A stretch of DNA of 64,000 bases from Acidobacteriota bacterium (GTDB lineage Bacteria > Acidobacteriota > Terriglobia > Terriglobales > Acidobacteriaceae), in NCBI GenBank assembly GCA_013289795.1, contig JABCZH010000005.1, forward strand, positions 1 through 64,000, written 5' to 3'. Shown one piece after another: positions 37,287-52,159 of this stretch (positions are counted from its first letter, which is position 1; each line of letters begins with the position of its first letter). Made by a program: the position numbers and the translations under genes. The notes under the pieces are model-generated. The model saw only the letters and a program-made list of their open reading frames with translations, searched no databases and was not told the origin of the DNA.

Positions 37287-38690
37287 CTAGGCTACGACTT
37301 CAGGTTTCTCGGGAGACCCAGCGGTCCAGCCCTCTGGCTTCACCGCGTGATTAAGGAAGTAGGCAAGGACACCGGCGGCAATCAACACCATGCCGAAAGC
37401 AAACGAACTCATTCCCATCACCTGCTCGGTCTCGCTGCGGACTACGGAGAACCCAAGCAGCAGCATGGGCGTGATGCCGACAGCGACCGCCCCAAACATC
37501 CCCCCGGGAACGCGGAAGGGTCGCGGCAACTCAGGTTCGCGTACGCGAAGAACGATCAGGGCGACAAATTCCAGCGACAGGCTGACGCCATAGAGCAGAA
37601 TGTCCATGGTGACCAGTCGCTCGAATCCCAATCCGAGGCACATCGCCCAGCACACGGCCAGAGCCAGAATCGCAACCCAGGGTGCACGTGTGCGCGGGTG
37701 CAGTTTCCCGAACACCTTCGGCAACATGCCATCTTGCGCCATGGCCAAAGGCAAACGCGAGTAGCTCATCACTAAAGCGTTAAACATGCCAAAACCGCTG
37801 ATGATGCCGCCCAGAGCCAGACCAATACGCAACAGCGGCCCGCCCAACATGCCTGCGATGTCGGCCCAGAAACCAGTGTCCCACGAGGTCGCCGGAAGCC
37901 CGGTCATCCACATCGCCGCCACCGGCACGATGTAACTCAGCGCCACGATTGCTACCGCCACCAACATGGCCCGGGGATAGGTCCGCTGTGGGCGCTCGAC
38001 TTCGGTCGCGATGGTCGAAGCATTGTCCCATCCCATGTAGTTCCACATGCAGATCAACAGGCCAGTCAGAATGTCCACACTCGGATTCGTTGCCTTGGTA
38101 GCGACGTGAGCCAGTGCTCCAAACTTGAAAGGCGCAATGCAAACAATCGCAATGAAAGGTGCCGAAAGCGCAAAGAACAGCCACAACGACGTGGTCGAGA
38201 CCACGCGAACGCCGGCAATATTCATCAGCGCACAAATAATCACAACCGCCAGAGCGACCATCACTCCGCGATGTCCTTCAGCGAACCAGGGGAACAAGCG
38301 GTCGAGATAAAGGACGAACAGAGTAGGATAAATCGCCATGTCGAAGATCGACGCCACCAGCGAGAGCCAAGCCTCTTGAAATCCCCAGAAGTTGCCCATG
38401 GCGCGCCGCACCCAGGCGTAGTAGCCGCCTTCGAAGGGCAGGGCACTCGAAAGTTCGCCAATCATAAACGCGGTGGGCAGGCTCCAGAGAATAGGGGTCA
38501 ACAACAGAATGAGAATGCCGCGGCCATACCCGGCCCCATGCACGATGTCCTCCGTGCCATAGGTTCCGCCCGACACCATAAAGAAGGTGGCGGCGACGAG
38601 TGGCCACAGCGTGAGGCGGACGGACTTTTTCCGGGGAGCTACGATGGCGGGTGGCTGAAGTTGTTGACGGGGTGCGCTAGCTGTTGCCAA
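37287..38690 (-). CDS. APC-superfamily amino acid permease
   Basis: A 467-residue inner-membrane transporter with about 12 helices. Opening motif LWPLVAATFFMVSGGTYGTEDIVHGAGYG is the unwound first helix that binds amino-acid substrates. Also FEGGYYAWVRRAMGNFWGFQEAW, WNYMGWDNASTIATEVERPQRTYPRA (helix 6) and SRLPLAMAQDGMLPKVFGKLHPRTRAPW, all typical of APC amino acid/polyamine permeases. Substrate unknown. The gene lies between hspR and the cupin on the minus strand, apparently an insertion into an older heat-shock cluster. Confidence 0.9.
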   Translation of the reverse strand: MATASAPRQQLQPPAIVAPRKKSVRLTLWPLVAATFFMVSGGTYGTEDIVHGAGYGRGILILLLTPILWSLPTAFMIGELSSALPFEGGYYAWVRRAMGNFWGFQEAWLSLVASIFDMAIYPTLFVLYLDRLFPWFAEGHRGVMVALAVVIICALMNIAGVRVVSTTSLWLFFALSAPFIAIVCIAPFKFGALAHVATKATNPSVDILTGLLICMWNYMGWDNASTIATEVERPQRTYPRAMLVAVAIVALSYIVPVAAMWMTGLPATSWDTGFWADIAGMLGGPLLRIGLALGGIISGFGMFNALVMSYSRLPLAMAQDGMLPKVFGKLHPRTRAPWVAILALAVCWAMCLGLGFERLVTMDILLYGVSLSLEFVALIVLRVREPELPRPFRVPGGMFGAVAVGITPMLLLGFSVVRSETEQVMGMSSFAFGMVLIAAGVLAYFLNHAVKPEGWTAGSPEKPEVVA

Positions 38691-38980
38691 TTTCTATGGC
38701 TTCCTCCCTTGGGCGAATCACTCTCAGCCACCTCGTCTCCCTTGAATTACGAGGCTCCCGGTACCTAAGATTCCGGGGATTCGGCTGAAGTTAGTTCGCA
38801 GGTATGAGATTACGGGAAATTTCCCCAGATGCAAGAAAATTCTTGAAAAATTCTGTAGCTGGCGAGAGGTACCGAGGTAACGGAGGCACGCTCCCGCCCG
38901 CCGAACTCGACGTGAAACATGCTGGTGAATCTGGTATAAGGAATGCGCTTACGAAAACCTTTTTTCAGGAGGCAAGTTCC

Positions 38981-39442
38981 ATGAAGAAGATGCTAGTGGC
39001 TGCTTTTTTGATAGGAACAGTTCTCTTGTTTGCGCAATCGGGAAAGCCGCAGAACGCCTTCACCCCAAGCCGAATCAAATGGGGTCCACCGCCGCCATTT
39101 GTGGCCGCTGGCGCGAAGCTTGCGGTGCTGGAAGGCGACCCAACCGCCAATGCCGGCGATTTCACCATCCGACTGAAGATGCCCGACGGATACAAGATCG
39201 CGCCTCATTGGCACCCCAAGCGCGAGAATGTCACTGTGATCTCGGGTACTTTCAAGGTTGGTATGGGGGACAAGTTCGAGGCGGCCAAAATGACGAGTTT
39301 TCCGGCGGGCAGCTTCGCCTACCTCGATCCCGACATGCACCACTACGGCATGGCTTCGGGGCCAACCGTAGTCCAAGTTCACGGGATGTCGCCGCTGCAG
39401 TTCAACTATGTGAATCCCGCGGACGATCCCAGCAAGAAATGA
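38981..39442 (+). CDS. Secreted cupin protein (ChrR/DUF4437-like)
   Basis: 153 residues from an ATG nine bases after AGGAGG; the frame is open upstream but lacks any other ribosome site. Signal peptide MKKMLVAAFLIGTVLLFAQ, then one cupin barrel with HWHPKRENVTVISGTFKVGMGD (His-x-His, Glu) and DPDMHHYGMA (His). The metal site looks complete. These exported cupins are common in acidobacteria; the substrate is not known. The 290-base gap in front (38691-38980) has a TATAAG at about 38934 as a possible -10 box. A palindromic repeat begins 12 bases after the stop. Confidence 0.85.
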   Translation: MKKMLVAAFLIGTVLLFAQSGKPQNAFTPSRIKWGPPPPFVAAGAKLAVLEGDPTANAGDFTIRLKMPDGYKIAPHWHPKRENVTVISGTFKVGMGDKFEAAKMTSFPAGSFAYLDPDMHHYGMASGPTVVQVHGMSPLQFNYVNPADDPSKK

Positions 39443-39453
39443 TGAGAAGAGCC

Positions 39454-39525
39454 TTACCACAGGGGTCACAGGGAAAACGGTGTCTTTGGGAGTTTCCCTG
39501 TGTTCCTCTGTGCCCCCTGTGGTAA
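39454..39525. repeat. 72-bp palindromic element, TTACCACAGGGG family
   Basis: Perfect 12-bp terminal inverted arms TTACCACAGGGG and CCCCTGTGGTAA, with inner pairing CACAGGGAAA/TTTCCCTGTG. It lies between the cupin and GxxExxY stop codons and starts within a dozen bases of each. The same family occurs at 34.6, 40.0 and 46.0 kb. Confidence 0.85.
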
Positions 39526-39526
39526 T

Positions 39527-39937
39527 TCATTTCTGCCAATCCCGTCCATCAACCATGCGTTTGATCCCATCCCGCAGACGTGCAACATGAAAGTTGATCA
39601 GAAGCCCGACCGGGATGCCGCTAAGCCGCATATACGACAATAACTGCGCCTCGTGGACGGGGTGAATCGCCTCAACGCATTTCGCTTCAACAACTGAGTT
39701 TTCGACAACCAGATCGATTCGATACCCTAGTTCGAGTTTCTCACCCTCATAGACAACTGGCAGGGCAACTTGGGACGCCACCATAACGCCACGATTGCGG
39801 AGTTCGCGAGCAAGGCAGGCCTGATAGGCGCTCTCCAGTAGACCCGGTCCAAGCACGGAATGAACCTTCATTGCCGCGTTAACGACGATGCCCGTTAGTT
39901 GGTTGATTTTGGGCTGGAACGGGACAACGGAAGACAT
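39527..39937 (-). CDS. GxxExxY protein (PD-(D/E)XK-like nuclease fold family)
   Basis: 136 residues. The naming motif is GPGLLESAYQACLARELRNRG, followed by LPVVYEGEKLELGYRIDLVVENSVVEAKCVEAIHPVHEAQLLSYMRLSG; the Asp of YRIDLVV and the Glu-x-Lys of VEAK match the catalytic pattern of PD-(D/E)XK nucleases, and the tail has VGLLINFHVARLRDGIKR. Function is unknown. The start is the ATG preceded by AAAGGGAGA. The gene is framed on both sides by copies of the same palindromic repeat family and splits the dnaJ-hspR neighbourhood, so it was probably acquired together with the repeats. Confidence 0.88.
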   Translation of the reverse strand: MSSVVPFQPKINQLTGIVVNAAMKVHSVLGPGLLESAYQACLARELRNRGVMVASQVALPVVYEGEKLELGYRIDLVVENSVVEAKCVEAIHPVHEAQLLSYMRLSGIPVGLLINFHVARLRDGIKRMVDGRDWQK

Positions 39938-40009
39938 TCTCCCTTTGTATCCGCGAGTCAGAACAAACCTCAGTGACAAATGAACGGCGGTCACCTGTTG
40001 AAAAGCAAT

Positions 40010-40072
40010 GACCACAGAGACCACAGGGGTCCACAGAGGACTCCCCTGTGTCCCTCTGTGCCCCTGTGGTTA
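40010..40072. repeat. 63-bp palindromic element, ACCACAGGGG family
   Basis: Left arm GACCACAGAGACCACAGGGG and right arm CCCCTGTGTCCCTCTGTGCC, ending CCTGTGGTTA. The dnaJ stop codon (TAA on the minus strand) is the outermost triplet of the element. It is the upstream partner of the 39.5-kb copy around the GxxExxY gene. Confidence 0.8.
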
Positions 40073-41287
40073 AAGCTCTTTGAACAGGTCCGCCCGAGGA
40101 TCTTCCGGATTCAGCTTGGCAATTTCTCGCAGGAGTTCTTTGGTCTTTTCATCGCGCGGCATGGGAACCGTGATCTTGACTTCGACAATCTCGTCGCCAC
40201 GAACCCCGTCCTTGGTGGCGGAGGGCACGCCCTTCTCGCGCAACCGAAGTTTCTGACCAGATTGCGTTCCCTGAGGAATCTTCAACATCGCCCGGCCATC
40301 AATCGTAGGCACTTCGATCTTCGCGCCCAGAGCAGCCTCAGTCACAGTGATCGGCACGGTAAGTTGGATGTCATCACCCTCGCGATGAAATACCGGGTGA
40401 TCGCCTGTCCGGATAATGACGTAAAGATCGCCGCTGGGGCCGCCACGCAGTCCGGCGTTGCCTTTGCCGCTCAGCCGGATGCGCTGGCCGTCACGCGTGC
40501 CGGCCTTGATCCGCACTTCGAGCGGTTCAGTGCGTTCCACCGTGCCATCGCCGTGGCACGCAGCGCAGGTGGAAATGTTCTTGCCCGTCCCGTGACAGCG
40601 CGGGCAGGGAACGTTGAACTTCATGCGTCCACCAGTCTGAGTGATCTGCCCGGCGCCGTCGCACTCGGGACACTTTCCCGGCGACTCAATATGACCCTGT
40701 CCACGGCAATCAGTGCAAACATCACGGCGGGATATGTTTAGCCGCATCACACCCCCGCGAATCGCTGTCCAGAAGGGGACGTTGACCTGGTATTCCAAGT
40801 CCGACCCCGGTTCGGGACCTTCATGGGCAGGCGCGCCGCGTCCCCCGAAAATGCCGGAGAAAATGTCTTTGAAACCGGCGCCGCCACTCGGTTTCCGTGC
40901 CCGCGCGCCTTCGAACATGTCGGAGAAATCAAATCCTCCGAAGTCGAAGGGAACTTCCTGACCTGGCGGCCGCGCCTGGCCCGGGGGAACCCCGCCGCCG
41001 GGGAATCCACTCGCTCCAGCGCGAGCGTAAGCCTCGGCCGTCGCCGCATCAATATTGTCGGAGTAGAAGCCAACCTGATCGTAAATCTTGCGCTTCTTGG
41101 GATCGCTCAGAACATCGTTGGCCTCGGAGATCGTCTTGAACTTCTCCTCAGCAGTCTTGTCGCCAGGGTTTACGTCAGGATGATACTTGCGCGCCAGCTT
41201 GCGAAAAGCCTTGCGGACATCATCAGCTGAGGCTGACTTCTTTATTCCGAGAAGCTCGTAGTAGTCCTTTTTTGCAGTCGTGGCCAT
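40070..41287 (-). CDS. dnaJ: Chaperone DnaJ
   Basis: DnaK co-chaperone that delivers unfolded clients and stimulates ATP hydrolysis. 405 residues: J domain 8-72 with the HPD motif (KYHPDVNPG), a Gly/Phe-rich linker ([28 protein letters not shown]), a four-repeat zinc finger ([32 protein letters not shown]), and the C-terminal client-binding domain. Full length. It follows dnaK and a small ORF on the same strand; grpE is not in the cluster. The stop codon touches a palindromic repeat, so the original downstream sequence has been replaced. Confidence 0.95.
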
Positions 41288-41308
41288 GTTGGCGTGCTGA
41301 GAGTCACC

Positions 41309-41482
41309 TTACTGGATTTTTCGGCTGCCGTTTCTGAACGTCTCAGCCCACTCCTGCTTGGCCGCGTCCACGTACACGGGGAAGCGGTCGACGCCATTCT
41401 CCGTCGCCCGAAAAACGTAAAAGCAGTTCTCAGCCTCGACAAACTTCAGAAAGTAATCTTGTCCGTTGACTTGAAATTGCAT
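41309..41482 (-). CDS. Small conserved protein between dnaK and dnaJ
   Basis: 57 residues (MQFQVNGQDYFLKFVEAENC, YVFRATENGVDRFPVYVDAA). Two in-frame ATGs follow GGGGAGG: the first is adjacent to it and too close, the second has six bases of spacing and is taken as the start. The short beta-rich protein has no known domain. It ends 21 bases before dnaJ, so it belongs to the dnaK-dnaJ transcript and may be heat induced. Confidence 0.75.
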   Translation of the reverse strand: MQFQVNGQDYFLKFVEAENCFYVFRATENGVDRFPVYVDAAKQEWAETFRNGSRKIQ

Positions 41483-41510
41483 TTGCATCCTCCCCAGAAC
41501 CCAAAAACAA

Positions 41511-41574
41511 GCCACGGATTTAACTGATCCTGACGGATTGCCTTAATCCGCGTTGATCCGCGTAAATCCGTGGC
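41511..41574. repeat. 64-bp palindromic element, GCCACGGATTTA family
   Basis: Perfect 12-bp terminal arms GCCACGGATTTA and TAAATCCGTGGC, with inner copies of GATCC/GGATT and TGATCCGCG. The best-preserved copy of the family in this window; others at 34.7, 37.2, 47.5 and 48.2 kb. It lies inside the dnaK-dnaJ gene cluster. Confidence 0.85.
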
Positions 41575-41583
41575 GCTTTTCGT

Positions 41584-41624
41584 GCCCAGCTTTGGCTGAA
41601 AGCTGACGGCTGATAGCTGACAGC
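41584..41624. repeat. Short tandem repeat (GCTGA units) at the dnaK stop
   Basis: Five to six units of the type GCTGAAA, GCTGACG, GCTGATA, GCTGACA ending exactly at the dnaK stop codon. Same type as the repeat at 33.3 kb, also placed at a gene end. Confidence 0.65.
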
Positions 41625-43562
41625 TTATTTCTTGTCTTCTACATCCACATACTCGGCGTCGATCACGCCTTCGTCCTTCTTCTGCCCGGCGCCATTCGCG
41701 CTGGGGTCCGGACCGCCGCCATTTCCCGCCGTCGGGCCCGCCCCCGGAGCCGCCTGTGACTGCGCAGCCTTGTACATCTGCTCAGCCAGCTTGTGCGAAG
41801 CCTTGGTCAAGGTCTCGCGAGCCTTGTCCATAGCCGACTTATCGCCACCTTCGAGCGCCTTCTTGGCGTCGGCAATCGCGTTCTCCACATCGCCACGGTC
41901 CGATCCCGAGATCTTCTCGCCTTGCTCCTTGAGCATCTTCTCCACGTTGTAAACCATCGAGTCGAGCTGGTTCTTAGCGTCAATCTCTTCGCGCCGCGCT
42001 TTGTCCTCAGCCGAGTGCGCCTCAGCGTCCTTCGCCATTTGCTCCACTTCCTCTTTCGACAATCCCGACGACGACGTAATCGTGATCTTCTGGTCCTTGC
42101 CCGTAGCGTTGTCCTTCGCCGTCACATTCAGGATGCCGTTGGCATCAATGTCGAACGTGACTTCCACCTGCGGCACGCCGCGCGGAGCCGGTGGAATCCC
42201 GGTCAAGTGGAACTTGCCCAGCGTCCGATTCTGCGCCGCCATCGGCCGTTCGCCCTGCAACACGTGGACTTCAACCGAAGTCTGGCTATCCGCCGCGGTC
42301 GAGAACGTTTCCGTCTTCTTGGTCGGAATCGTCGTGTTCCGCGGAATCATCGGAGTCGCCACCCCGCCCAGCGTTTCAATCGCCAGCGTCAGCGGAGTCA
42401 CATCCAGCAACAGCAGATCCTTGACTTCGCCCTTGAGCACGCCGCCCTGAATCGCCGCGCCGATCGCCACCACTTCATCCGGATTCACGCCCTTGTGCGG
42501 CTCTTTGCCAAACAATTCCTTCACCAGCGCCTGAATGCGAGGCATACGCGTCTGCCCGCCGACCAGCACTACTTCGTTGATCTTCGAGGCATCCACGCCT
42601 GCGTCTTTCATGCACTGCTTGCACGGCCCCACTGACTTCTGAATGATGTCCTCAACCATCGACTCCAGCTTCGCCCGGGTCAGTTTCTTCACCAGATGCT
42701 TCGGCCCGCTGGCATCCGCCGTGATGAACGGCAAATTGATCTCATGCTCCATCGTGGTCGAAAGCTCAATCTTCGCCCGCTCCGCCGCATCCCGCAGACG
42801 CTGCAAAGCCATCTCATTGCCCTTGCCGCGCAAGTCGAGGCCTTCATCCTTCTTGAATTCGTCAATCAACCAATCAACCAGCCGCTGATCAATGTTGTCG
42901 CCGCCCAGGTGCGTGTCACCGTTGGTGGCTTTCACTTCGATCACGCCTTCGCCGACTTCAAGGATCGAAATATCAAACGTCCCGCCCCCGAAGTCGTACA
43001 CCGCAATGGTCTCGTCCTTACCTTTGTCGAGGCCATAAGCCAGCGCCGCCGCGGTCGGCTCGTTGATAATGCGCTTCACATCGAGCCCGGCAATCTTGCC
43101 GGCATCTTTCGTCGCCTGCCGCTGGGCGTCGTTAAAGTACGCAGGCACAGTAATAACCGCCTCGGTCACTTTCTCCCCGAGATAGTCTTCCGCCGCCTTC
43201 TTCAACTTCTGCAATATCAGCGCCGAAATCTCCGGTGGCGGATACTCCTTGCCCTGCGCCAGCACGGCCACGTTGTCGCCCTGGCGAACCACTTTGTAGG
43301 GCACCATCTTCAACTCTTCGCTGACTTCGTCATAGCGCCGGCCCATAAAGCGCTTGATCGAGTAAACCGTGTTCTCCGGATTGGTGATGGCCTGCCGCTT
43401 GGCAACCTGCCCCACCAGCCGTTCCCCAGTCTTGGTGAATCCCACGACCGAAGGCGTAGTCCGCCCTCCTTCTTCATTAGGGATAACCTTGGGCTCGCCA
43501 CCCTCCATAACCGCCACGCAGGAGTTGGTGGTTCCGAGGTCAATACCGATAATCTTGGACAT
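41625..43562 (-). CDS. dnaK: Chaperone DnaK (Hsp70)
   Basis: ATP-dependent chaperone, 645 residues. ATPase domain with [50 protein letters not shown] and [14 protein letters not shown]; the GrpE-contact and hinge [17 protein letters not shown]; substrate domain with [17 protein letters not shown] and a helical lid; and the usual disordered end with [21 protein letters not shown] lies eight bases before the ATG. The promoter has a HAIR-like HspR site, so the gene is probably under HspR repression with DnaK feedback. First gene of the dnaK-small ORF-dnaJ cluster. Confidence 0.97.
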
Positions 43563-43627
43563 GTGAAGTCCCTCCTAGTTCTACTAAGTGCTTTGTAATC
43601 AATGTCGTGATGATTGCGTTCAGGGCT

Positions 43628-43657
43628 ATGCTAAGACCTGAGTGAATCGTTGTCAAG
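43628..43657 (-). promoter_or_regulatory. dnaK promoter with HAIR-like HspR site
   Basis: On the minus strand a perfect -35 TTGACA (43651-43656) is followed by exactly 17 bases and a -10 TAGCAT (43628-43633). The inverted repeat CTTGACA-N7-ACTCAGG (43637-43657) covers the -35 and spacer and matches the HspR box CTTGAGT-N7-ACTCAAG at 10 of 14 positions. The leader is about 60 bases. Confidence 0.75.
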
Positions 43658-43752
43658 GTTTAGATGCGGGAGGAGATGTGGAGGATGCGGCGCCGTCGGC
43701 AAGAAAGCAGAACCTCGCGCCCCAGGCGAGCGGCGGAGTAACATAGCGGCGA

Positions 43753-44526
43753 ATGGCCGGGCACAAGCTCTCCTCATTGAAGGGGCTCGAAAGGTTTCAG
43801 ATGGCGGTCGTCGCTGACGGAATGCCGGCGATGAAGCGCTTGCTTAGGTCGAGGAAAGCGAAGCTCCTCATGCAGGAGATACACAAGGAGATCTTCGAGC
43901 TAGGCCCACCGACCCCACCGAACAAGCCGACGGGGCGTACAAGGTACCACCAATGGCTGATGCACCATGCCTCGGAAATTTCGAGGTCGCTCGAAACGAT
44001 GGGAGACATCGAGTTCTACATCGGGAAATTCCCCTATCGCAAAACGCAGATTGCCAAGCACAGGCACCTCCAGTTCCACGTCGAGTCCTTCCTGCACGAG
44101 CTCTACATCCTGCAGGAAAGACTGGTGCAGTTTCTAAAGTTTGTCGAGCGCCAGCACAGGAAGGACCCGCGCCTGCCGCAGATCAAAGCCACGTGCGCAG
44201 TGCTCAACACGCTCGTGATTGACTCGATGAAGAAGGGAATCGCGATCCGAGGAAGCCACGTGCACAGATGGAGGATGTCGGACACGAAGATCGACCGCCT
44301 CAACGCAATCAGCTTCTACACAATGATGCCGAACAAGAAGGTCAAGAGGGTTTTCAAGGCGTTCTACGAGTCCGAGTACAGGAAGACCAGGAAGCAGTGG
44401 CGCGGATGGATCACGGGGGGCATAGCCGAAGCCCAGAAGCTAGTAGATGCGTACTTTGACGAGCTTTTCAAACTGGTGTTCGACGATAAGGGGAAGCTGG
44501 CCTATCCCAGCCGACTAGAGTTCTGA
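43753..44526 (+). CDS. HEPN-like protein of an accessory island
   Basis: 257 residues, highly basic, mostly helical. A long helical pair (KHRHLQFHVESFLHELYILQ, ERLVQFLKFVERQH) is followed by a helix with IAIRGSHVHRWRMSD, where Arg166 to His171 gives the R-x4-H motif of HEPN ribonucleases (most like the Cthe_2314-type group). If correct it would cut RNA as a toxin or defence effector. No obvious antitoxin is fused to it; the next genes on the strand are an unknown protein and an HTH-nucleotidyltransferase protein. Codon use and base composition are less G+C-rich than the neighbouring housekeeping genes, fitting acquisition. Confidence 0.7.
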   Translation: MAGHKLSSLKGLERFQMAVVADGMPAMKRLLRSRKAKLLMQEIHKEIFELGPPTPPNKPTGRTRYHQWLMHHASEISRSLETMGDIEFYIGKFPYRKTQIAKHRHLQFHVESFLHELYILQERLVQFLKFVERQHRKDPRLPQIKATCAVLNTLVIDSMKKGIAIRGSHVHRWRMSDTKIDRLNAISFYTMMPNKKVKRVFKAFYESEYRKTRKQWRGWITGGIAEAQKLVDAYFDELFKLVFDDKGKLAYPSRLEF

Positions 44527-44606
44527 CAATAACCGGAAATGCACAACACATGAAAAGGCTATGAAGGCGACGTGGTCGTAACGTCGGGAAGGCGAGACAG
44601 CGAGAA

Positions 44607-45245
44607 ATGTACCGATTGATCGAAAAGTATGCTGGCATCATCGTGAAAAGAATCCCACCAGACTTCGTGAGCAAGTACGACTGGCTCTTGGAAAACGCTG
44701 ATAAGGTAATGGCCTCTGAGTACCAGATGAAATATCGGGACTTTTGGGCAATGAATGCGGCACTGCCGAGTGACGAGTTTTGTAGTGTTTACTTTTCCAC
44801 ACTGCAAAGCGCTCTCAATGAGGCAAAAGATCCTCCCTCGCTCAAAGACATCGTGAAGATTCTCTATCCGGCCACTGAGCGTAAAGGTAAGAACCCGAAA
44901 AAGCCTTTCCCTCCATTTTCATTCGCAACAAAGTTACAGCACATGACGAATACCGCCTTGCCGGTTTATGACAAGTGGGTGGTTGGATTCTACTTCCTTC
45001 GGGTACCGACGCTTACGAAGACGGGAGGAATAGAACGTCGGATCGTGGACTATATCAAGATCCATGATTTTCTGGTCGAGGAGTATGCCCGAGTCTTGGA
45101 TGAGGGTTTGTTATCAAATGCGATTCGGGAATTCGAGAGCGAATTGAAGCCGCGACATTTTTCAAAGGAGAAGATTATTGACTCTCTGATTTGGGCATTT
45201 GCCGGTAATAACCTACTCCAGACCAAAGCGGTCATATACGAATAG
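44607..45245 (+). CDS. Unknown protein of the accessory island
   Basis: 212 residues and clearly richer in A+T than its surroundings. The most informative part is FATKLQHMTNTALPVYDKWVVGFY, which looks like the helix-hairpin-helix-like strip (SKxLHxxNPxxPIYD) found in proteins of unknown role in phage-defence and restriction neighbourhoods, but I cannot name a family. The rest is helical (EEYARVLDEGLLSNAIREFE). It lies 80 bases after the HEPN-like gene on the same strand; together they look like one acquired cassette. Confidence 0.65.
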   Translation: MYRLIEKYAGIIVKRIPPDFVSKYDWLLENADKVMASEYQMKYRDFWAMNAALPSDEFCSVYFSTLQSALNEAKDPPSLKDIVKILYPATERKGKNPKKPFPPFSFATKLQHMTNTALPVYDKWVVGFYFLRVPTLTKTGGIERRIVDYIKIHDFLVEEYARVLDEGLLSNAIREFESELKPRHFSKEKIIDSLIWAFAGNNLLQTKAVIYE

Positions 45246-45263
45246 CCCGGCGCTGGGTGCCCA

Positions 45264-45320
45264 ATGTCTCGCCGCTTTTGCGAGACATGGGAGGGCTTCT
45301 GGGACCTGGCCGGCCCTCCC
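45264..45320. other. Two consecutive hairpins after the accessory cassette
   Basis: A perfect 9-bp hairpin ATGTCTCGC/GCGAGACAT with a seven-base loop is followed at once by a GGGAGGGC/GGCCCTCCC pairing. There is no T-run, so these are not classical terminators, but their place after the unknown gene suggests a transcript end or an insertion border. Confidence 0.45.
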
Positions 45321-45341
45321 CTCAAGGACAACTGAATCAGT

Positions 45342-45378
45342 TTGACCATCGTACTTCAAATGGGTACAATAGTACCCA
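45342..45378 (+). promoter_or_regulatory. Promoter with operator on its -10 box
   Basis: -35 TTGACC (45342-45347), 17 bases, -10 TACAAT (45365-45370). The -10 box lies inside a perfect inverted repeat TGGGTAC-aata-GTACCCA (45361-45378). Transcription would start at about 45377, three or four bases before the GTG of the gene. Confidence 0.8.
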
Positions 45379-45380
45379 CA

Positions 45381-45989
45381 GTGAGTACGCAAACTTCCAC
45401 GCCTGACCACACCTTATTCGGCCGCACCCGCAGCGCCCTGCTCGCCCTGCTTTTCGGCCACACCGACGAATCCTTCTACCTGCGTCAACTCATCCGAACC
45501 GTGGGCACAGGGAACGGCGCTTTGCAGCGCGAAATCAAGCAACTGACGGACATGGGACTCATCGTGCGCCGTGCCCAGGGCAATCAGGTTCTCTATCGCG
45601 CAAATAAGCAAAGCCCGATCTTCCCCGAACTCAAGCGGCTGATCACCAAGACCGTCGGCGTGCACGACGCCATCCGCTCCGCGCTCGCCACCCTGGAGCC
45701 GGAGATTGAGGCTGCCTTCGTATACGGCTCGGTCGCCAGTCACCGCGAGCAGACCAACAGCGACGTGGACCTCATGGTCATCGGAAAAGCATCTTTCAGC
45801 GTTGTAGTCGCAGCACTCAACCCAGCCCAGAAGACGCTCCGCCGCGAGATCAACCCAAGTGTCTTTCCCGTTTCAGAATTCCGCTCAAAATTAGCCGCCA
45901 AAAATCACTTTCTGCGTAGCGTATTGGCCGGCCAAAAGGTATTTGTGTTAGGTAGTGAAGACGAGCTTAGAAAGCTGGTTGCGAAATAG
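45381..45989 (+). CDS. HTH regulator fused to a MNT-type nucleotidyltransferase domain
   Basis: 202 residues starting at a GTG. N-terminal winged helix (TRSALLALLFGHTDESFYLR, GALQREIKQLTDMGLIVRRA) and a C-terminal minimal nucleotidyltransferase domain: FVYGSVASHREQTNSDVDLMVIG gives Gly116-Ser117 and Asp128-x-Asp130. MNT domains in this setting modify targets or act as antitoxins to HEPN toxins by AMP transfer. An upstream HEPN-like gene makes that pairing attractive but distance and separate promoter weigh against a simple operon. The promoter and its palindrome strongly suggest self-repression and a leaderless or near-leaderless mRNA. A longer ATG/ATA start upstream would run through the promoter. 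Confidence 0.85.
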   Translation: MSTQTSTPDHTLFGRTRSALLALLFGHTDESFYLRQLIRTVGTGNGALQREIKQLTDMGLIVRRAQGNQVLYRANKQSPIFPELKRLITKTVGVHDAIRSALATLEPEIEAAFVYGSVASHREQTNSDVDLMVIGKASFSVVVAALNPAQKTLRREINPSVFPVSEFRSKLAAKNHFLRSVLAGQKVFVLGSEDELRKLVAK

Positions 45990-46000
45990 ATCGCGAGTTC

Positions 46001-46042
46001 CGCACAGACCACCCCGTGATCCTCTGTGCCCCCTGTGGTAAA
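46001..46042. repeat. Half copy of the CTGTGGT repeat family
   Basis: CACAGACCACCCC on the left and CCTCTGTGCCCCCTGTGG on the right, starting about a dozen bases after the stop of the HTH-nucleotidyltransferase gene. The wider gap 45990-46292 has no gene. Confidence 0.65.
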
Positions 46043-46233
46043 GATTTTGACCTATCCGTCCCAATCCGGGCACTTTAGTCGCGCCGTCCCAAAGTTTTCT
46101 CGATTCGGGAAACACCTTGTCAAGCCCCTTGACATCGACATTTCCGGCTAGCCCACTGAAACTAATCCAGAAATAAATTTCCAATTCGTGTCTCACTTAC
46201 CCTTCCAATTTGCTATCCTAAAAGTAGGTACAA

Positions 46234-46264
46234 AAAAGGCGCGGCCCTACGGGCTGCGCCTTTT
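46234..46264. terminator. Bidirectional terminator-like hairpin before the endonuclease gene
   Basis: A 14-bp stem starting AAAAGGCGC with one G-T pair and a three-base loop; A-run on the left and T-run on the right, so it could stop transcription in both directions. It lies only 29 bases before the endonuclease ATG, so it could also act as a leader attenuator if transcription begins upstream. Confidence 0.7.
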
Positions 46265-46292
46265 ACTTTGCTCGAAAACCTGAAAGGCTCAA

Positions 46293-47069
46293 ATGATTGG
46301 ACACATTCCAGAAATCCACGCCGTCGGCCTCCCCACCAGCAAGGCGCACGGCGAAGCCGCCGAAGCTGCCTTCCTCGCCAAAGCCACCAGTCTGGGCTTC
46401 GGCGTAGCCAAAACCTGGGGAGAGAGTGAGCGTTACGACTTCATGGTCGACTCTGGCCAAAAACTGTGGCGGGTCCAGGTCAAATCCTGCAGGTGCTTCA
46501 GGTCCTACTACAAGGTGATAACCAGAGGAGGCAAGGCAGCTTATACCGCCGACGAAATCGATTTCATCGTTGTCTATATCGTGCCGAAAAATCTCTGGTA
46601 CGTGATTCCGATTTCCTTTATCGCCTCGCGCGTCAATATGTACATCTCTCCCGACGGCCCCAATTATCGTGAGCACGAAAAGTACCGCGAGGCCTGGTGC
46701 CAAATGGCGTGCCCCCGCGATCCAAACCGCGCAAACCCTCTCCTCGTAGAACGCCAGCCCGATTACGCCTTTGACTCTTGTGGGCTATGCAGCACCCAGC
46801 CTGTTGACATGTGCTGCACATGCAAGTACGCTACAAACATGTCAAAGATGATTCAACTCCGAAACGTCCCGGATGCCCTGCATCGCAGCCTGAAAGCCCG
46901 CGCTGCCATGTCCGGCAGGTCGTTGTCGGACTACCTGCTGGCGGAGATCAAAGAGATCGCGGAACGGCCCACGCTGGAAGAATTCCGGGAACGTCTGCAC
47001 CGCAGGAAGCCGCTAGCAGTCGAAATCGACAGCGCACGCCTGGTACGCGAAGAACGTGACGCGCGGTGA
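46293..47069 (+). CDS. Group I intron-type PD-(D/E)XK endonuclease fused to a FitA-like antitoxin
   Basis: A 258-residue open frame of two unrelated parts. Residues 1 to about 150 match the PD-(D/E)XK endonucleases first met in group I introns: KAHGEAAEAAFLAKATSLGF, Asp49 in SERYDFMV and Gln62-x-Lys64 in WRVQVKS, then YTADEIDFIVVYIVPKNLWYVIP and the EKYREAW end. A Cys-rich bridge follows. Residues 183-258 are a ribbon-helix-helix antitoxin (see the nested entry). The nuclease's usual stop has been lost, or the fusion is real. No intron is visible here. Its ATG has no strong ribosome site, and a terminator-like hairpin sits in front. Confidence 0.75.
   Translation: MIGHIPEIHAVGLPTSKAHGEAAEAAFLAKATSLGFGVAKTWGESERYDFMVDSGQKLWRVQVKSCRCFRSYYKVITRGGKAAYTADEIDFIVVYIVPKNLWYVIPISFIASRVNMYISPDGPNYREHEKYREAWCQMACPRDPNRANPLLVERQPDYAFDSCGLCSTQPVDMCCTCKYATNMSKMIQLRNVPDALHRSLKARAAMSGRSLSDYLLAEIKEIAERPTLEEFRERLHRRKPLAVEIDSARLVREERDAR
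46804..46832 (+). promoter_or_regulatory. Internal promoter and palindrome in front of the antitoxin
   Basis: A consensus -35 TTGACA (46804-46809) and a poor -10 TACGCT 17 bases later. Overlapping them is the perfect inverted repeat CATGTGC-T-GCACATG (46808-46822). This is the position of a self-regulating toxin-antitoxin operator, yet it lies inside the open frame of the fused nuclease. Confidence 0.5.
46839..47069 (+). CDS. FitA/VapB-like ribbon-helix-helix antitoxin
   Basis: 76 residues if started at its own ATG (an alternative is MIQLRNVPD three codons later). MIQLRNVPDALHRSLKARAA with SGRSLSDYLLAEIKEIAERP is the Arc/FitA-type DNA-binding fold, and the tail (TLEEFRERLHRRKPLAVE) is the flexible part that would thread into the toxin. 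The stop overlaps the toxin GTG by four bases, the standard coupling of VapBC pairs. It lies in frame with the upstream nuclease, so it may be made alone, as a fusion, or both. Confidence 0.85.
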   Translation: MSKMIQLRNVPDALHRSLKARAAMSGRSLSDYLLAEIKEIAERPTLEEFRERLHRRKPLAVEIDSARLVREERDAR

Positions 47070-47458
47070 TCGTCCTGGATGCGTCAGTTGTTATTGACTG
47101 GTTGATTCGGTCTCCAGCCGCCCAACGCATTGAAAGCCGAATCTTTTCGCGCCATCAGTCTCTGCACGCCCCTGAACTCCTTGATCTGGAGGTCGCCCAG
47201 GTGTTGCGCCGACTGGTTCGGGAGGATACGCTTTCCGCATCGAGCGCTGAAACTGCCATTGAGGATTTACTGGACATGCGGATTACGCGCTATTCGCACA
47301 CCATGCTTTTGCCTCGAATCTGGGAACTTCGTCACAATCTATCTGCCTATGATGCGGCCTACGTTGCACTGGCAGAACGGCTAGGCGCGATCTTGCTGAC
47401 ACGGGATGCTGGCATCAAGGCTGCGGGTAAGCATTTGGCAAACATCGAGACAGTCTGA
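47066..47458 (+). CDS. vapC: VapC-like PIN-domain toxin ribonuclease
   Basis: 130 residues, GTG start within the antitoxin stop. The PIN-domain acidic residues are in place: Asp5 (VLDASVVIDWL), Glu42 (LLDLEVAQVLRR), Asp96 (SAYDAAYVALAE) and Asp114 (LLTRDAGIK). VapC toxins cut tRNA or rRNA when freed from the antitoxin. The target is not predictable. A palindromic-repeat half copy begins within ten bases of the stop. Confidence 0.92.
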   Translation: MIVLDASVVIDWLIRSPAAQRIESRIFSRHQSLHAPELLDLEVAQVLRRLVREDTLSASSAETAIEDLLDMRITRYSHTMLLPRIWELRHNLSAYDAAYVALAERLGAILLTRDAGIKAAGKHLANIETV

Positions 47459-47463
47459 TTATC

Positions 47464-47502
47464 GTTTCGTGTGTGTTTTATCCGTGTAAATCCGTGGCGA
47501 AA
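47464..47502. repeat. Half copy of the ATCCGTGGC repeat family
   Basis: TTTTATCCGTGTAAATCCGTGG between vapC and parD, with an adjoining CGTTTCGTGTGTG. Matches the right arm of the element at 41.5 kb. Confidence 0.65.
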
Positions 47503-47520
47503 TGGTTCCTAACCAATCGC

Positions 47521-47549
47521 TTGTGACTCGGAACTCTGTCCAGTACGAT
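47521..47549 (+). promoter_or_regulatory. Candidate parDE promoter
   Basis: -35 TTGTGA (47521-47526), 17 bases, -10 TACGAT (47544-47549), 26 bases before the parD ATG. No clean palindrome is seen over it. Confidence 0.5.
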
Positions 47550-47575
47550 AATCAAGGCAGCGGAAAAGAGCAGTC

Positions 47576-47851
47576 ATGACCATTGACCTTAAACCCGAGC
47601 AACAGCGTGTTATCGATCTCGCGGTCAAATCCGGCGCCTATCAGAATCCGGGCGAGGTTCTCGATCAAGCGTTTGAGATTATCCGGGAACAGCTTGAGTT
47701 GGAAGATTGGATGACAGGGCAACGTGCAGTCGTAGCTGCCCACATTGAAAAAGGATTCCGCCAAGCCGAGCGGGGCGAACTGATGGACGGCGATGCAGCC
47801 ATTGAAATTCTGCGAAAGCGCCGTGCTGAGCGACTGAAGTCGCAAGAATGA
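47576..47851 (+). CDS. ParD-like antitoxin
   Basis: 91 residues. The N-terminal ribbon-helix-helix region (LKPEQQRVIDLAVKSGAYQN, PGEVLDQAFEIIREQLE) is the ParD/CC2985 type, and the C-terminal acid/base-rich helix (VAAHIEKGFRQAERGELMDG, AAIEILRKRRAERLK) is the toxin-binding tail. The stop overlaps the next start by four bases, as usual for ParDE operons. Confidence 0.9.
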   Translation: MTIDLKPEQQRVIDLAVKSGAYQNPGEVLDQAFEIIREQLELEDWMTGQRAVVAAHIEKGFRQAERGELMDGDAAIEILRKRRAERLKSQE

Positions 47852-48159
47852 AGGCGTCATTTCAGTTCACACCACAGGCGACCGCCGATATTGATGCCAT
47901 CTGGTGGTTCATCGCCGAGGACAATCCGGCCGCTGCAGATATGGTTGAAGGGGAGATTGTTGCATCCTGCCGCCGCCTGGCCAAACATCCTGGGATGGGC
48001 ATAAAGCATCAGGACGTTACGCCCCTGAACGTTCGCTTTTGGACCGTCTCAAGATTCCCCAACTATGTAATCGTCTATCGGCCTGAGACCACTCCTTTGC
48101 AGGTGGTTGCTGTACTGCACGGGAAACGGGATTTGAAAGAAATTCTGCAAAAGCGGTGA
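47848..48159 (+). CDS. ParE/RelE-superfamily toxin
   Basis: 103 residues: FQFTPQATADIDAIWWFIAE, NPAAADMVEGEIVASCRRLA, HPGMGIKHQDVTPLNVRFWT, FPNYVIVYRPETTPLQVVAV and LHGKRDLKEIL. This is the ParE order (antiparallel helices, then a sheet ending in VVAVLHGKRD). ParE toxins usually poison gyrase. It is translationally coupled to the antitoxin, and the pair is bracketed by half copies of the same palindromic repeat. Confidence 0.92.
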   Translation: MKASFQFTPQATADIDAIWWFIAEDNPAAADMVEGEIVASCRRLAKHPGMGIKHQDVTPLNVRFWTVSRFPNYVIVYRPETTPLQVVAVLHGKRDLKEILQKR

Positions 48160-48176
48160 TTATGAAATTCTGGCGA

Positions 48177-48206
48177 CCGCGTTGATCCGCGTAAATCCGC
48201 GGCGAG
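48177..48206. repeat. Half copy of the ATCCGTGGC repeat family
   Basis: GCGTTGATCCGCGTAAATCC with GCGGCGAG, between the convergent parE and reductase genes. It matches the right arm of the 41.5-kb element almost exactly. Confidence 0.7.
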
Positions 48207-48212
48207 ATTGTC

Positions 48213-48935
48213 CTAGTCGTACTTCTCATACAAAATCGACTTCCGGTCCCAGCCCAGTGACTTCAGCAGCTCACGGTTGGCTTTGACCATCTTGTCGAGG
48301 CCGCAGACGTAGGCGTGCATGTCAGTGCGGGCCTGTGCAATCGCGGGGACGTGTTCCTGCACATATCCTCGCAGCCCTTGCCATTCGGAACCTCCGCGGC
48401 TCAAGGTCGGCCGGTAATGAAAGTTGGCATGTTCCGAGGCTAGGCGCAGGAACTCGTCGTGGTAGTAAATATCTTTCTCAGTGCGATTGCCGAAGACCAG
48501 CGAGAGCTGTTTCCCCTGATGACGAGATTCCTCGGCAAGCAGCCAATGCAGCATCGATCGAAACGGCGCGATCCCGGTGCCAGTGGCGATGAAAACGGTA
48601 TCGCGCATCGGAGGGCGGAGAATGAAATCGCCGAACGGCCCCGAGCAGGCAATCTCGTCGCCAACTTTCATGTCACAAAGATAATTCGACGTGAAGCCAT
48701 CCTGCACCCGGTTAAGGCAAAGCGCGAAGCGGTTATCCTCACTGGGAGGCGAAGCGATGGAATAAGCCCGAGTGATTTCCTCGCCGTCAGGCTTGGTGGC
48801 CTTGAACGACAGCCATTGGCCGGCAACAAAGCCGAATCGCGGAACGGCTTTCATTTCGAACTCGATGTGCTTGGTGAGTTCGGAAAGCGCCGTCGAGCGC
48901 ATGAGGCGAGCAGCAAAAGTTTGGAAAGAGGCCAT
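48213..48935 (-). CDS. FAD-dependent ferredoxin/flavodoxin-NADP+ reductase
   Basis: 240 residues from MASFQTFAARLM; a longer frame exists but its extension reads as Ser/Pro linker without a ribosome site. FAD-binding site RAYSIASPP (Arg56-Ala-Tyr-Ser), NADP-binding ATGTGIAPFRSM (Gly119), and the C-terminal part YVCGLDKMVKANRELLKSLGWDRKSILYEKYD. Transfers electrons between NADPH and ferredoxin, flavodoxin or an oxygenase. No partner is encoded next to it. The upstream region is occupied by REP palindromes. Confidence 0.9.
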   Translation of the reverse strand: MASFQTFAARLMRSTALSELTKHIEFEMKAVPRFGFVAGQWLSFKATKPDGEEITRAYSIASPPSEDNRFALCLNRVQDGFTSNYLCDMKVGDEIACSGPFGDFILRPPMRDTVFIATGTGIAPFRSMLHWLLAEESRHQGKQLSLVFGNRTEKDIYYHDEFLRLASEHANFHYRPTLSRGGSEWQGLRGYVQEHVPAIAQARTDMHAYVCGLDKMVKANRELLKSLGWDRKSILYEKYD

Positions 48936-48993
48936 CAATTGTGTAGATGAGGGAAGATTACCAGAAGACCCGCTTGAGAGTTTGGGTGGGAAC

Positions 48994-49118
48994 GGCACGC
49001 CGGAAGGCGTGCCCCGATACGAAAGGGTTCTTAACGGGCTAAGGTCAGGTTCGTATCAGGGCACGGCTTCAGCCTTTGGCCGGTTTGGTTCGTATCAGGG
49101 CACGGCTTCAGCCGTGCC
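48994..49118. repeat. REP cluster at the 3' side of the first RAYT gene
   Basis: Perfect palindromes GGCACGCC-ggaa-GGCGTGCC (48994-49013) and GGCACGGC-ttca-GCCGTGCC (49099-49118), plus a damaged copy between them (about 49059-49082). The linkers CCGATACGAA and TTCGTATCAG are inverted to each other, so each pair forms a BIME-like unit. The last palindrome overlaps the end of the transposase gene. Confidence 0.88.
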
Positions 49119-49629
49119 GCAAGGGCTTCTTAAAAGAAACGGGCTTTGGCCCCTGCGGGAGGGGGTCCAGAATGCATCCCGGATATGCAGACGAATAGGG
49201 ATAGTCGCTTGCCTTCTGAACCAGCTTCGCCACGACCGGACTGTCGCGAATATATTCGCAAACGTGTGAAGCGGCCTGTGCATTCAGCACCCGCACTTCT
49301 GAAAAACCGCGCTGCCAAATTGCAGCTTTAAATCCGAGTTCCTTTCCTGCGCGGAATGCGAATCCACCCTTAATGAACTGAACGGCGCGCTCGACAGTTG
49401 TATCTGCACCCACTGTAATCAGTACATGAAAGTGATCCGGCATAACGACAAATTCGTGCAGCAGGAATTTACCTTGAGCACGATATTCCTGAAGCACCCT
49501 CAAGAATAATTGAGCCGCCCGGTCGGACTGAATCAGGAATCGCTTGCCCGAGGTCGAGGATGTCACATGAAAAGTGCGGACGCCGGAAATAATCTGTATG
49601 GGATTCGAATTTCTTGCGGGAATGGACAT
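49108..49629 (-). CDS. REP-associated tyrosine transposase (RAYT), copy 1
   Basis: 173 residues, Y1_Tnp/HUH fold. The HUH pair is His66 and His68 in VVMPDHFHVLI, and the catalytic Tyr is Tyr126 in CEYIRDSPV, matching Tyr115 of E. coli TnpA-REP. Also TTVERAVQFIKGGFAFR and AIWQRGFSEVRV. Single-copy, domesticated transposases of this class move or maintain their own REP palindromes. The C terminus (PQGPKPVSFKKPLRHG) is encoded inside the REP cluster. The gene is enclosed on both sides by the same REP family, the arrangement expected for a complete RAYT-REP unit. Confidence 0.9.
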   Translation of the reverse strand: MSIPARNSNPIQIISGVRTFHVTSSTSGKRFLIQSDRAAQLFLRVLQEYRAQGKFLLHEFVVMPDHFHVLITVGADTTVERAVQFIKGGFAFRAGKELGFKAAIWQRGFSEVRVLNAQAASHVCEYIRDSPVVAKLVQKASDYPYSSAYPGCILDPLPQGPKPVSFKKPLRHG

Positions 49630-49715
49630 GACTGAATTTGTAACGAATCGCAGAGCGATCGTCAGTGATATTGGTCACAAAGGAGAACCATGTAGTCCCG
49701 AATCAGGCAGCAGCG

Positions 49716-49820
49716 CCTGAAGGCGCACATTTGTAGGCTTGTAACGGCACGCCTGAAGGCGTGCCCCGATACGAATCACTGTGCGTCCGGTTCGTATCAG
49801 GGCACGGCTTCAGCCGTGCC
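49716..49820. repeat. REP cluster at the 5' side of the first RAYT gene
   Basis: GCGCCTGAAGGCGC (49716-49729), GGCACGCC-tgaa-GGCGTGCC (49746-49765) and GGCACGGC-ttca-GCCGTGCC (49801-49820), with the same inverted linkers CCGATACGAA and TTCGTATCAG. The trailing GGCTTTAGCCCCTGCG also occurs (as GGCTTTGGCCCCTGCG) at the other side. A decayed relative lies at 61825-61850. Confidence 0.88.
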
Positions 49821-49863
49821 GCAAAAGCATCGCAAAGGAAACAGGCTTTAGCCCCTGCGAACT

Positions 49864-51738
49864 CTACTCCACCGTCACCGACTTCGCCAAATTCCGCGGT
49901 TGATCCACATCACACCCACGCCGGACCGCGATGTGATAAGCCAGCAACTGCAGCGGCACGATTTCCAGAATCGGCGCCAGCTCTTCGGGCGCCGGAGGAA
50001 TGTAGAGCACATGATCGGCAGCTTCCTTGATTTCTTCGTCGCCCTCAGTAGCTAAAGCGATAACCTGCCCGGATCGCGCTTTTACTTCCTTCAAGTTCGA
50101 GATGGTCTTCTCATAACGGATGCGCGAAAGCTCGTCATTAGCATCGCGAGTTGCCAAAATCACAACAGGAAGGTTCTCGTCGATCAGCGCATTGGGGCCG
50201 TGCTTCATTTCACCGGCCGGATAGCCCTCGGCGTGGATGTAAGAAATCTCTTTGAGCTTGAGTGCGCCTTCGAGCGCAATGGGATAGTGGATGCCGCGGC
50301 CCAGAAACAGGAAATCCTGTGCCCGGACATACTGTTTCGCGAGCGCTTCGCATTCTTCATCACGCGTAAGCAACTGCTCGAGTTTGGCGGGCAGGCGCAG
50401 CAGTTCTTGAATAGCAGTCTTGGCCTGCTCAGCGCTCATTTCCCCTCGCGTTTGCGCCAGATATAGCGCAAACAGGTAAAGCGCTGTAAGTTGAGCAGTG
50501 AAAGCCTTAGTAGACGCGACGCCAATCTCCGGACCAGCATGGGTGTAAATCGTCCCGGCAGCCTCGCGCGTAATCATCGAGCCGACCACGTTACAGATAG
50601 CCAGCGTCTTCGAGCCTTTGGACTTCGCCTCGCGCTGCGCAGCAATGGTGTCAGCAGTTTCGCCAGACTGCGAAATCAGCATGGTCAGCGTATCCGGCGG
50701 AATGATGGGATCGCGGTAGCGCCATTCGCTGGCGTAGTCGACTTCGACTGGAATCCGCGCCAGCCGCTCAATCATGAACTTCCCGGCCTGAGCAGCATGC
50801 CAACTGGTACCGCAAGCCGCAATGTTGATCTTCTTCGCAGCCTTGAACTCGGCTTCCGTAACCTGCATTTCATCCAAAAAAATATGGCCGGTCTCCTGGG
50901 AGATCCGGCCAAGGGTAGTGTCGCGGACAGAGCGTGGCTGCTCATAGATTTCCTTGAGCATGAAATGCTTAAACCCACCTTTTTCGGCAGCTATAGGATC
51001 CCAATTCACGTGCTGGATCTGGGGAGTACGCGGATTACCAAGGAAGTCGGTCAGCTTCACGCCTTCGGGAGTGATCGTCGCCAGGTCGCCGTCGGAGAGG
51101 AAGAACAAATCGCGAGTGTGATAAAGAATTGCCGGCACATCGGAGGCGATGAAGTATTCGTCTTTGCCGAGGCCGATGACAGCTGGCGGGCCATTGCGGG
51201 CAGCCACGATTTTGTCGGGAGAGTCCGACGACAGCACGCCCAGCGCGAACACCCCAGTCAACTCGCCAACTGTTTTGCGCACGGCTTCTTCGAGCGATGG
51301 CCGATGGCCGTTTCCAGTTTTGTAATAATATTTCTCGACCAGGTGGGCGATGACTTCAGTATCGGTCTCAGTAGTAAATGTGTGGCCTTCTTCGATCAGT
51401 TTCTTCTTTAGTGTGACGTAATTCTCGATGATGCCGTTGTGCACGACGACAATCTTGCCAGTGCAATCGCGATGCGGATGCGCATTTTCTTCAGTGGGGC
51501 GGCCATGCGTGGCCCAGCGAGTATGGCCGATGCCGTAAGTACCGTCGAGCGGCTTGAGACGAATAACTTCTTCAAGATTACGCAGCTTGCCTTCAGCGCG
51601 CCGCACCTGCAAGCCTTCGCCGTTACCGCACACGGCGATCCCAGCAGAATCGTATCCACGATATTCCAAACGACGAAGTCCCTCAATAATGACAGGGACA
51701 ACCGCCTTCCTACCAACATAACCCACGATTCCGCACAT
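49864..51738 (-). CDS. glmS: Glutamine-fructose-6-phosphate aminotransferase GlmS
   Basis: Makes glucosamine-6-phosphate for peptidoglycan and LPS. 624 residues: N-terminal glutaminase with the nucleophile Cys2 ([11 protein letters not shown]), [20 protein letters not shown] and [11 protein letters not shown]; two SIS isomerase domains ([52 protein letters not shown]) and the conserved end [16 protein letters not shown] precedes the ATG. It is 175 bases downstream of purS on the same strand; no glmS ribozyme is recognisable in that gap. Confidence 0.96.
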
Positions 51739-51913
51739 GTTGTGCTACTCCTGCTTTCGGCGGGGACACTGGTTCAAGTCCCTTGCAAGATCCCCAGTAC
51801 AGATTACGGCAACCTGCGCCCGGCGTGTCATGAAAGATTTTTATAGGTGACCAAAGTACTGCTTATTTCGTTTCGCGGGCAATTGCCAGCCTGCGGAGTC
51901 GGGGTCGTGGGGA

Positions 51914-52159
51914 CTACTCCTCGATAGAGTAACGAAACTCTTCGATCACGGGGTTGGTAAGGACCTCGCGGGCGATGCGTGCTACTTCGGCGTCCGCTTC
52001 TGTCCTGGTCAAACCGCCGTCCAGGGTGAGCTCGAAATACTTGCCTTGGCGGACTTCGTCCAGCCCCTTGAATCCCATCTTCGTGAGGGCGCCGTGAATG
52101 GTCTTGCCCTGGGGATCGAGGACGCTCTTCTTCAACGAAACATACACGTAAGCTTTCAT
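51914..52159 (-). CDS. purS: Phosphoribosylformylglycinamidine synthase subunit PurS
   Basis: 81 residues: MKAYVYVSLKKSVLDPQGKT, GALTKMGFKGLDEVRQGKYF and VLTNPVIEEFRYSIE are the standard PurS motifs. PurS bridges PurL and PurQ in the purine pathway enzyme. Normally purQ follows at once; here the next gene on the strand is glmS, so purS is separated from its partners in this window. Confidence 0.93.
   Translation of the reverse strand: MKAYVYVSLKKSVLDPQGKTIHGALTKMGFKGLDEVRQGKYFELTLDGGLTRTEADAEVARIAREVLTNPVIEEFRYSIEE

Follow-up and report, generated by a model that had tools for sequence, protein, structure and literature searches.

Genes 1 and 2, two adjacent open frames of a 64,000-nucleotide stretch of DNA from an Acidobacteriota bacterium (contig JABCZH010000005.1; hereafter, the window), appear to be independent accessory genes that have come to be neighbours within a small acquired island, which carries defence and toxin-antitoxin genes and is located upstream of dnaK (Table 1), a reading to which we give a slight preference. 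Two separate arrivals are suggested by the lack of co-occurrence of the genes elsewhere together with the disagreement of their base compositions.

Table 1. Coordinates of the features of the dnaK island, given as positions of the window.
Feature	Position	Strand	Remarks
Acquired island, dnaK to ferredoxin-reductase-like gene	43670..48211	.	4542 bp between stretches homologous to G1089
Gene 1	43753..44526	+	Open frame, 257 aa, pI 10.1; basic helical RGxHVH protein, HEPN-like candidate
R166-G-S-H-V-H171 codons of gene 1	44248..44265	+	R166, G167, H169, V170 and H171 invariant in 5/5 rows
Gap between genes 1 and 2	44527..44606	+	80 bp; fold z-score 0.34, no significant RNA structure; no Rfam match
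Gene 2	44607..45245	+	Open frame, 212 aa; family without a name, FSFxxKLxHM and PxYD motifs
Gene 2 residues 104-122 (FSFATKLQHM to PVYD), best-conserved block	44916..44972	+	Homologue alignment
Two stem-loops, gene 2 to next gene	45246..45341	+	MFE -40.9 kcal/mol, z -1.44; 20/200 shuffles fold equally well
HTH-nucleotidyltransferase	45342..45989	+	PADLOC PDC-M05A 4.4e-73 (45342-45986); Pfam Polbeta 3.1e-7
PDDEXK_5 endonuclease domain and FitA-like ribbon-helix-helix antitoxin domain in one frame	46293..47069	+	Pfam 8e-16 and 1.6e-7; PADLOC HEase 5.5e-10
PIN-domain toxin	47066..47458	+	PF01850 1e-11
Small gene preceding ParE; probable ParE antitoxin	47576..47851	+	Position only; no credible Pfam match
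ParE toxin	47848..48159	+	PF05016 4.3e-16

The island, of about 4.5 kb, is missing from two relatives, G1089 and G1083. Two stretches of the window, 41596-43669 and 48212-48950, are homologous to G1089, where they lie only 622 bp apart, and the dnaK and ferredoxin-reductase-like genes, which are 4.65 kb apart in the window, are separated by 287 bp in G1083. The gap in G1088 measures about 2.7 kb and is filled by other frames, including a permease-like one. The two flanking genes were found close together in just three of the 20 relatives, the remaining 17 being uninformative (the genes were not close on one contig). The island contains two apparent toxin-antitoxin pairs. The PDDEXK_5 and FitA-like domains share one frame, through either a fusion or the loss of a stop codon, and this frame overlaps the PIN toxin gene. 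No integrase was seen by eye in the island and no tRNA was found in the region 38000-52000. Two 30-nt direct repeats (47477-47506 and 48182-48211) are 83% identical, and the end of the second one coincides exactly with the island's right edge.

The stem-loops that follow gene 2 are a possible transcription boundary, and no terminator with a T run was called in that interval. An RNA antitoxin or riboregulator was considered and rejected, given that no Rfam match was obtained at E <= 1, only short tandem repeats were seen and no unusual fold was detected between genes 1 and 2; the stretch located 5' of gene 1 folds worse than its own shuffles.

The base composition of both genes was compared with a background of 165 ORFs of the same genome. 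The G+C content of gene 2 (0.465; GC3 0.566) is lower than that of all the 165 background ORFs (mean 0.582), so that the proposal of the earlier note that this gene is compositionally foreign stands for its G+C content and does not extend to its whole codon choice, which is ordinary (28th percentile). That proposal had to be corrected in another respect, since gene 2 is not the only odd gene: gene 1, with an ordinary total G+C (0.558, 16th percentile) and an ordinary codon choice (62nd percentile), has a GC3 of 0.802 that is higher than that of all 165 ORFs, i.e., it deviates in the opposite direction. The ordinary codon choice of both genes for this genome is a point against two arrivals. Outside the island, a PDDEXK_3 gene (PF13366, 6.4e-40) that adjoins dnaJ at 39527-40024 also has a low G+C (0.531).

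The open frame of gene 1, its basic character and its R166-GSHV-H171 motif were confirmed as the earlier note had described them. By itself, the Rx4-6H motif is at chance level in this protein: gene 1 contains four matches and its shuffled versions 3.1 on average, and at least one match is present in 96% of the shuffles and in 73% of the 165 background proteins. Thus, the weight of the motif comes solely from its conservation among homologues. The alignment of gene 1 comprises five rows, i.e., the window, an Acidobacteria MAG (L007), a plasmid of Paraburkholderia caledonica (L005), Paraburkholderia sp. CNPSo 3274 (L006), and a genome from the family of the latter (L009), with pairwise identities of 16.8-26.6% except for the two proteins L005 and L006, which are 70.2% identical to one another. 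The motif, as R166-x4-H171, is conserved in all five proteins. There are 13 invariant columns including the start Met, the other 12 being E75, I76, P94, I100, Y118, R123, R166, G167, H169, V170, H171, and W216. Judged from this alignment, R166 and H171 behave as active-site residues would, and the same can be said of H169, E75, and R123.

Searches of Pfam, NCBIfam, PADLOC, and PHROGs gave no credible match to gene 1, the best being phrog_13677 (E 0.028), which was discarded because it was matched by just one of the five gene 1 members. The search against PDB sequences did not yield a credible match either; a match to designed armadillo proteins (E 0.008) was rejected, as it covered 32 residues and was gone when a profile was used. 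None of the five members matched a HEPN-named family of Pfam or PHROGs, and one homologue weakly matched PADLOC Csx1 (E 0.034), a CRISPR-associated protein with a HEPN domain. When gene 1 was compared by hhalign with five neighbouring HEPN-motif proteins, considered HEPN by eye only, the probability was at most 1.3% and shuffles did no worse, in a comparison run without a positive control.

The structural evidence comes from a model of gene 1 built with four sequences, which shows a generic helical bundle with a mean pLDDT of 55.6. In this weak model the helix 141-166 terminates at R166 (mean pLDDT just 57 over residues 161-170), and the end of helix 3 is the location described for the HEPN motif (PMC3710099). 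Foldseek retrieved no PDB or BFVD match for the model at E <= 0.001. The VIA-align matches, which reach Z 10.8, are for the most part generic helical bundles, for which Z values in this range are common by chance; no HEPN entry could be recognized by title among the 50 matches listed, which do include the YicC endoribonuclease (Z 7.5 and 7.2). Concerning the residues around the motif, the Arg is followed by Gly in the five rows, so the polar N, D, or H that is described as typical of the HEPN motif, though not required (PMC3710099), is absent. Many HEPN families, not all, are described as having a conserved acidic residue upstream in helix 2, typically within Ex3[KR] (PMC3710099); in gene 1, E75 is invariant and E116 is present in four of the five rows, and no Ex3[KR] is found at E75.

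The HEPN assignment of the earlier note remains plausible: the invariant motif residues, the position of R166 at a helix end of the weak model, the weak Csx1 match of one homologue, and the mobile/defence context speak for it, and the lack of a HEPN profile match, the lack of a structural match of the weak model, the Gly after the Arg, and the absence of Ex3[KR] at E75 speak against it. We consider a HEPN-like RNase function for gene 1 a prediction with marginally better than even prospects, based on the alignment and the model, and we do not class gene 1 as a member of the HEPN superfamily. Alternatively, gene 1 might be a non-HEPN helical bundle with a metal or ligand site formed by E75, H169, and H171, perhaps with R123 and R166. 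E75 and H169 equal R166 and H171 in invariance, the structural matches include four-helix bundles, metal-binding ones among them (6n63, YtfE, copper storage proteins), and a sequence link to HEPN was not found; however, helical-bundle matches at such Z values are common by chance and an R-x4-H at a predicted helix end is the HEPN arrangement, and we regard this alternative as unlikely, although worth bearing in mind.

Gene 1 is a rare gene. It was found in two of the 396 genomes of the phylum of the window (its own included), in two of 299 genomes from the family to which the Paraburkholderia genome belongs (a count that includes the latter; the same two were recovered among 398 genomes of its phylum), in one plasmid record, and in one IMG/VR contig, and two loci came from the scan of species genomes (80 candidate stretches). 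No homologue was detected by tblastn in phage records. These counts, like those of gene 2 given below, are lower bounds, because some peptide patterns were poorly placed and the proteins are so divergent.

The homologues of gene 1 are found in mobile settings. In the prophage L010 (genome G408), the homologue is located between a RusA resolvase gene and the terminase/portal genes, in an orientation opposite to that of the surrounding phage genes, and an identical protein is encoded by a 50.8-kb contig classed as viral by IMG/VR. In L006 the homologue directly follows an integrase gene. The plasmid that carries the L005 homologue is mobilizable, and the genes close to this homologue are of the IS66, TIR-like (E 4e-6), and HNH nuclease types. 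The MAG locus L007 is the same as locus L002 carried by G170. Two side observations can be added: a 454-aa protein of no named family with an RSRVLH motif is encoded directly after the integrase and the homologue in L006 (8568-9932), and two small R-x4-H genes, whose HEPN character was judged by eye and which have no credible Pfam or PADLOC match, lie directly 3' of the homologue in L007 (8647-9661).

Gene 2 did not give a credible match in Pfam, NCBIfam, PADLOC, or PHROGs either, the best one being phrog_16553, annotated as 'transcriptional repressor' (E 0.0042). This result bears out, for these four libraries, the view of the earlier note that gene 2 belongs to no known family, and the same holds for gene 1. 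No credible match to gene 2 was found among PDB sequences, where its profile retrieved only CP190 (E 0.45 and 0.54), and its structural model, built with two sequences, was unusable (pLDDT 37.2). One of the four members scanned, the homologue of locus L014, weakly matched Pfam HEPN_AbiA_CTD (E 0.011; 16.1 bits, the cut-off being 27). We do not claim a likeness of gene 2 to helix-hairpin-helix glycosylases.

Gene 2 was detected in two of the 396 genomes of the phylum of the window (its own included), in one of 398 further genomes, and in one IMG/VR contig, and tblastn did not detect homologues on plasmids or in phage records. In the 54.9-kb viral contig L017, the homologue adjoins the tape-measure gene on the opposite strand; a second opposite-strand gene (11946-12806), located across the tape-measure gene from the homologue, encodes a 286-aa protein, membrane-like by eye and without a PADLOC match. 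In the prophage L016 (G909), the homologue lies between the terminase/endolysin and Rha genes, and it is followed at once by genes for a nucleotidyltransferase (PADLOC PDC-S09, 4e-10) and a HepT-like protein, so labelled by eye. AbiEi and AbiEii genes are found about 3 kb from the homologue of L011 (G203). Prophage hotspots of anti-phage genes have been documented (PMC9122126). Taken together, the island, prophage, integrase, and plasmid contexts and the toxin-antitoxin neighbours support a defence/mobile setting for the two genes.

The proposal that both genes form a toxin-antitoxin or defence pair fared worse. Gene 2 was not found with a two-row profile in G170, G396, G397, or the plasmid (0/4, in a run without a positive control), nor with a four-row profile in G170, G408, G396, the plasmid, or the viral contig of gene 1 (0/5, in a run that found its positive control G000, the genome of the window). 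The six genomes and records that carry gene 1 probably represent four sources, as G170/G397 and G408/viral contig look duplicated. Reciprocally, gene 1 was not found in G203, G909, or the viral contig of gene 2 (0/3, with no positive control in that run, the same profile having found G396 and G408 elsewhere). This co-occurrence survey, which had been set beforehand as the test of the pair, goes against it, as no genome or record apart from that of the window yielded both genes, a result that rests on few genomes because both families are so rare.

A single two-gene system, in which gene 1 would be a HEPN ribonuclease toxin and gene 2 its antitoxin or sensor, is in our opinion improbable. The genes share a strand and are spaced by 80 bp, a codirectional arrangement that makes co-transcription possible and counts against their independence, and both are rare genes of defence/phage settings; however, each gene has been found without the other in phage settings, and a two-gene system lacks support since co-occurrence was seen in the window alone and the two compositions are biased in opposite directions. 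A reshuffled nucleotidyltransferase-HEPN module, in which the M05A nucleotidyltransferase of the island would work with gene 1 (or gene 2) replacing its usual HEPN partner, is still harder to credit, for although PDC-M05 pairs a nucleotidyltransferase with a HEPN protein (PMC12988326), no HEPN partner for M05A was recognized when gene 1, gene 2, and the next downstream gene were scanned, and the gene 2 homologue of G909 likewise directly precedes a nucleotidyltransferase gene, the stem-loops separate gene 2 from M05A, M05A has its own promoter-like site (such sites being at chance level, with 2 found and 1.5 expected), no nucleotidyltransferase was seen by eye adjoining the other homologues, and PADLOC gave no match to either gene at E up to 10. 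The M05A gene is perhaps the orphan half of a candidate defence/toxin-antitoxin system.

Returning to genes 1 and 2 as independent accessory genes, gene 1 could encode a single-gene, HEPN-like RNA-cutting effector that would remain inactive in the absence of a trigger, such as a phage component or some other cue; once it is triggered, R166 and H171, perhaps with H169, would cut RNA and stop growth, as Tha does. The idea of a one-gene, infection-triggered RNase is drawn by analogy with Tha. Gene 2, whose role we infer more weakly than that of gene 1 and from its genomic setting, might be a stand-alone phage-interference gene organized around the FSFxxKLxHM/PxYD block. Our broadest proposal, which we put forward tentatively and expect to fail in some part, is that gene 1 founds a new and very divergent RGxHVH family of HEPN ribonucleases that act in one-gene abortive infection and owe their spread to temperate phages and integrative elements, that gene 2 founds an unrelated phage-carried interference family, and that the dnaK island traps such cargo alongside genes of the nucleotidyltransferase and toxin-antitoxin types. 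Both families, which lack a match in four major model libraries and occupy phage cargo positions, are good candidates for single-gene anti-phage screens, and recognizing that these neighbours are probably not a pair avoids testing them with the wrong partner. The Gly-for-Asn motif of gene 1 would broaden the reach of current HEPN profiles, provided that the gene does encode a HEPN RNase.

Several known systems can be compared with these genes. The PADLOC candidate PDC-M05 is described as consisting of a nucleotidyltransferase and a HEPN protein (PMC12988326); its A subunit is encoded by the next island gene after gene 2, and neither gene 1 nor gene 2 was recognized by PADLOC as its HEPN partner.

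As regards gene 2, the closest named family is DUF6308 (PF19827), which was matched only by the homologue of the viral contig L017 (4e-5, residues 81-196) with a score of 24.0 bits, which falls short of the curated cut-off (27.3); gene 2 of the window and the two other members scanned did not match it. The sole DUF6308 match in 55 genomes, L042, was dismissed as spurious, as it was sub-threshold and the only long plus-strand frame seen there was DNA polymerase subunit-like. No mention of DUF6308 was found in the papers searched, and, since a family without a name is not searchable by name, we do not claim that these families are absent from print. Gene 2 represents a separate phage-carried family, at most a distant kin of DUF6308.

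As to the HEPN superfamily, as described in PMC3710099, gene 1 shares with it an invariant R-x4-H at a predicted helix end, the all-helical nature of the protein, and the mobile/defence context, and differs from it in the lack of a profile link, the non-polar residue after the Arg, the absence of Ex3[KR] at E75, and the extra invariant His at R+3. The closest functional parallel is Tha, a HEPN defence protein of 301 aa encoded by a Staphylococcus aureus prophage, whose motif is R265NSIMH270, whose H270A mutant loses protection, and whose activators are reported to be phage tail proteins (PMC11087260). Compared by description, the motifs R265-NSIMH270 and R166-GSHVH171 differ in the residue after the Arg (Asn in Tha, Gly in gene 1), and a HEPN fold is confidently predicted for Tha only. 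Like gene 1, Tha is a single prophage-borne gene of similar size, and according to its description it acts alone by means of its RNase activity (PMC11087260).
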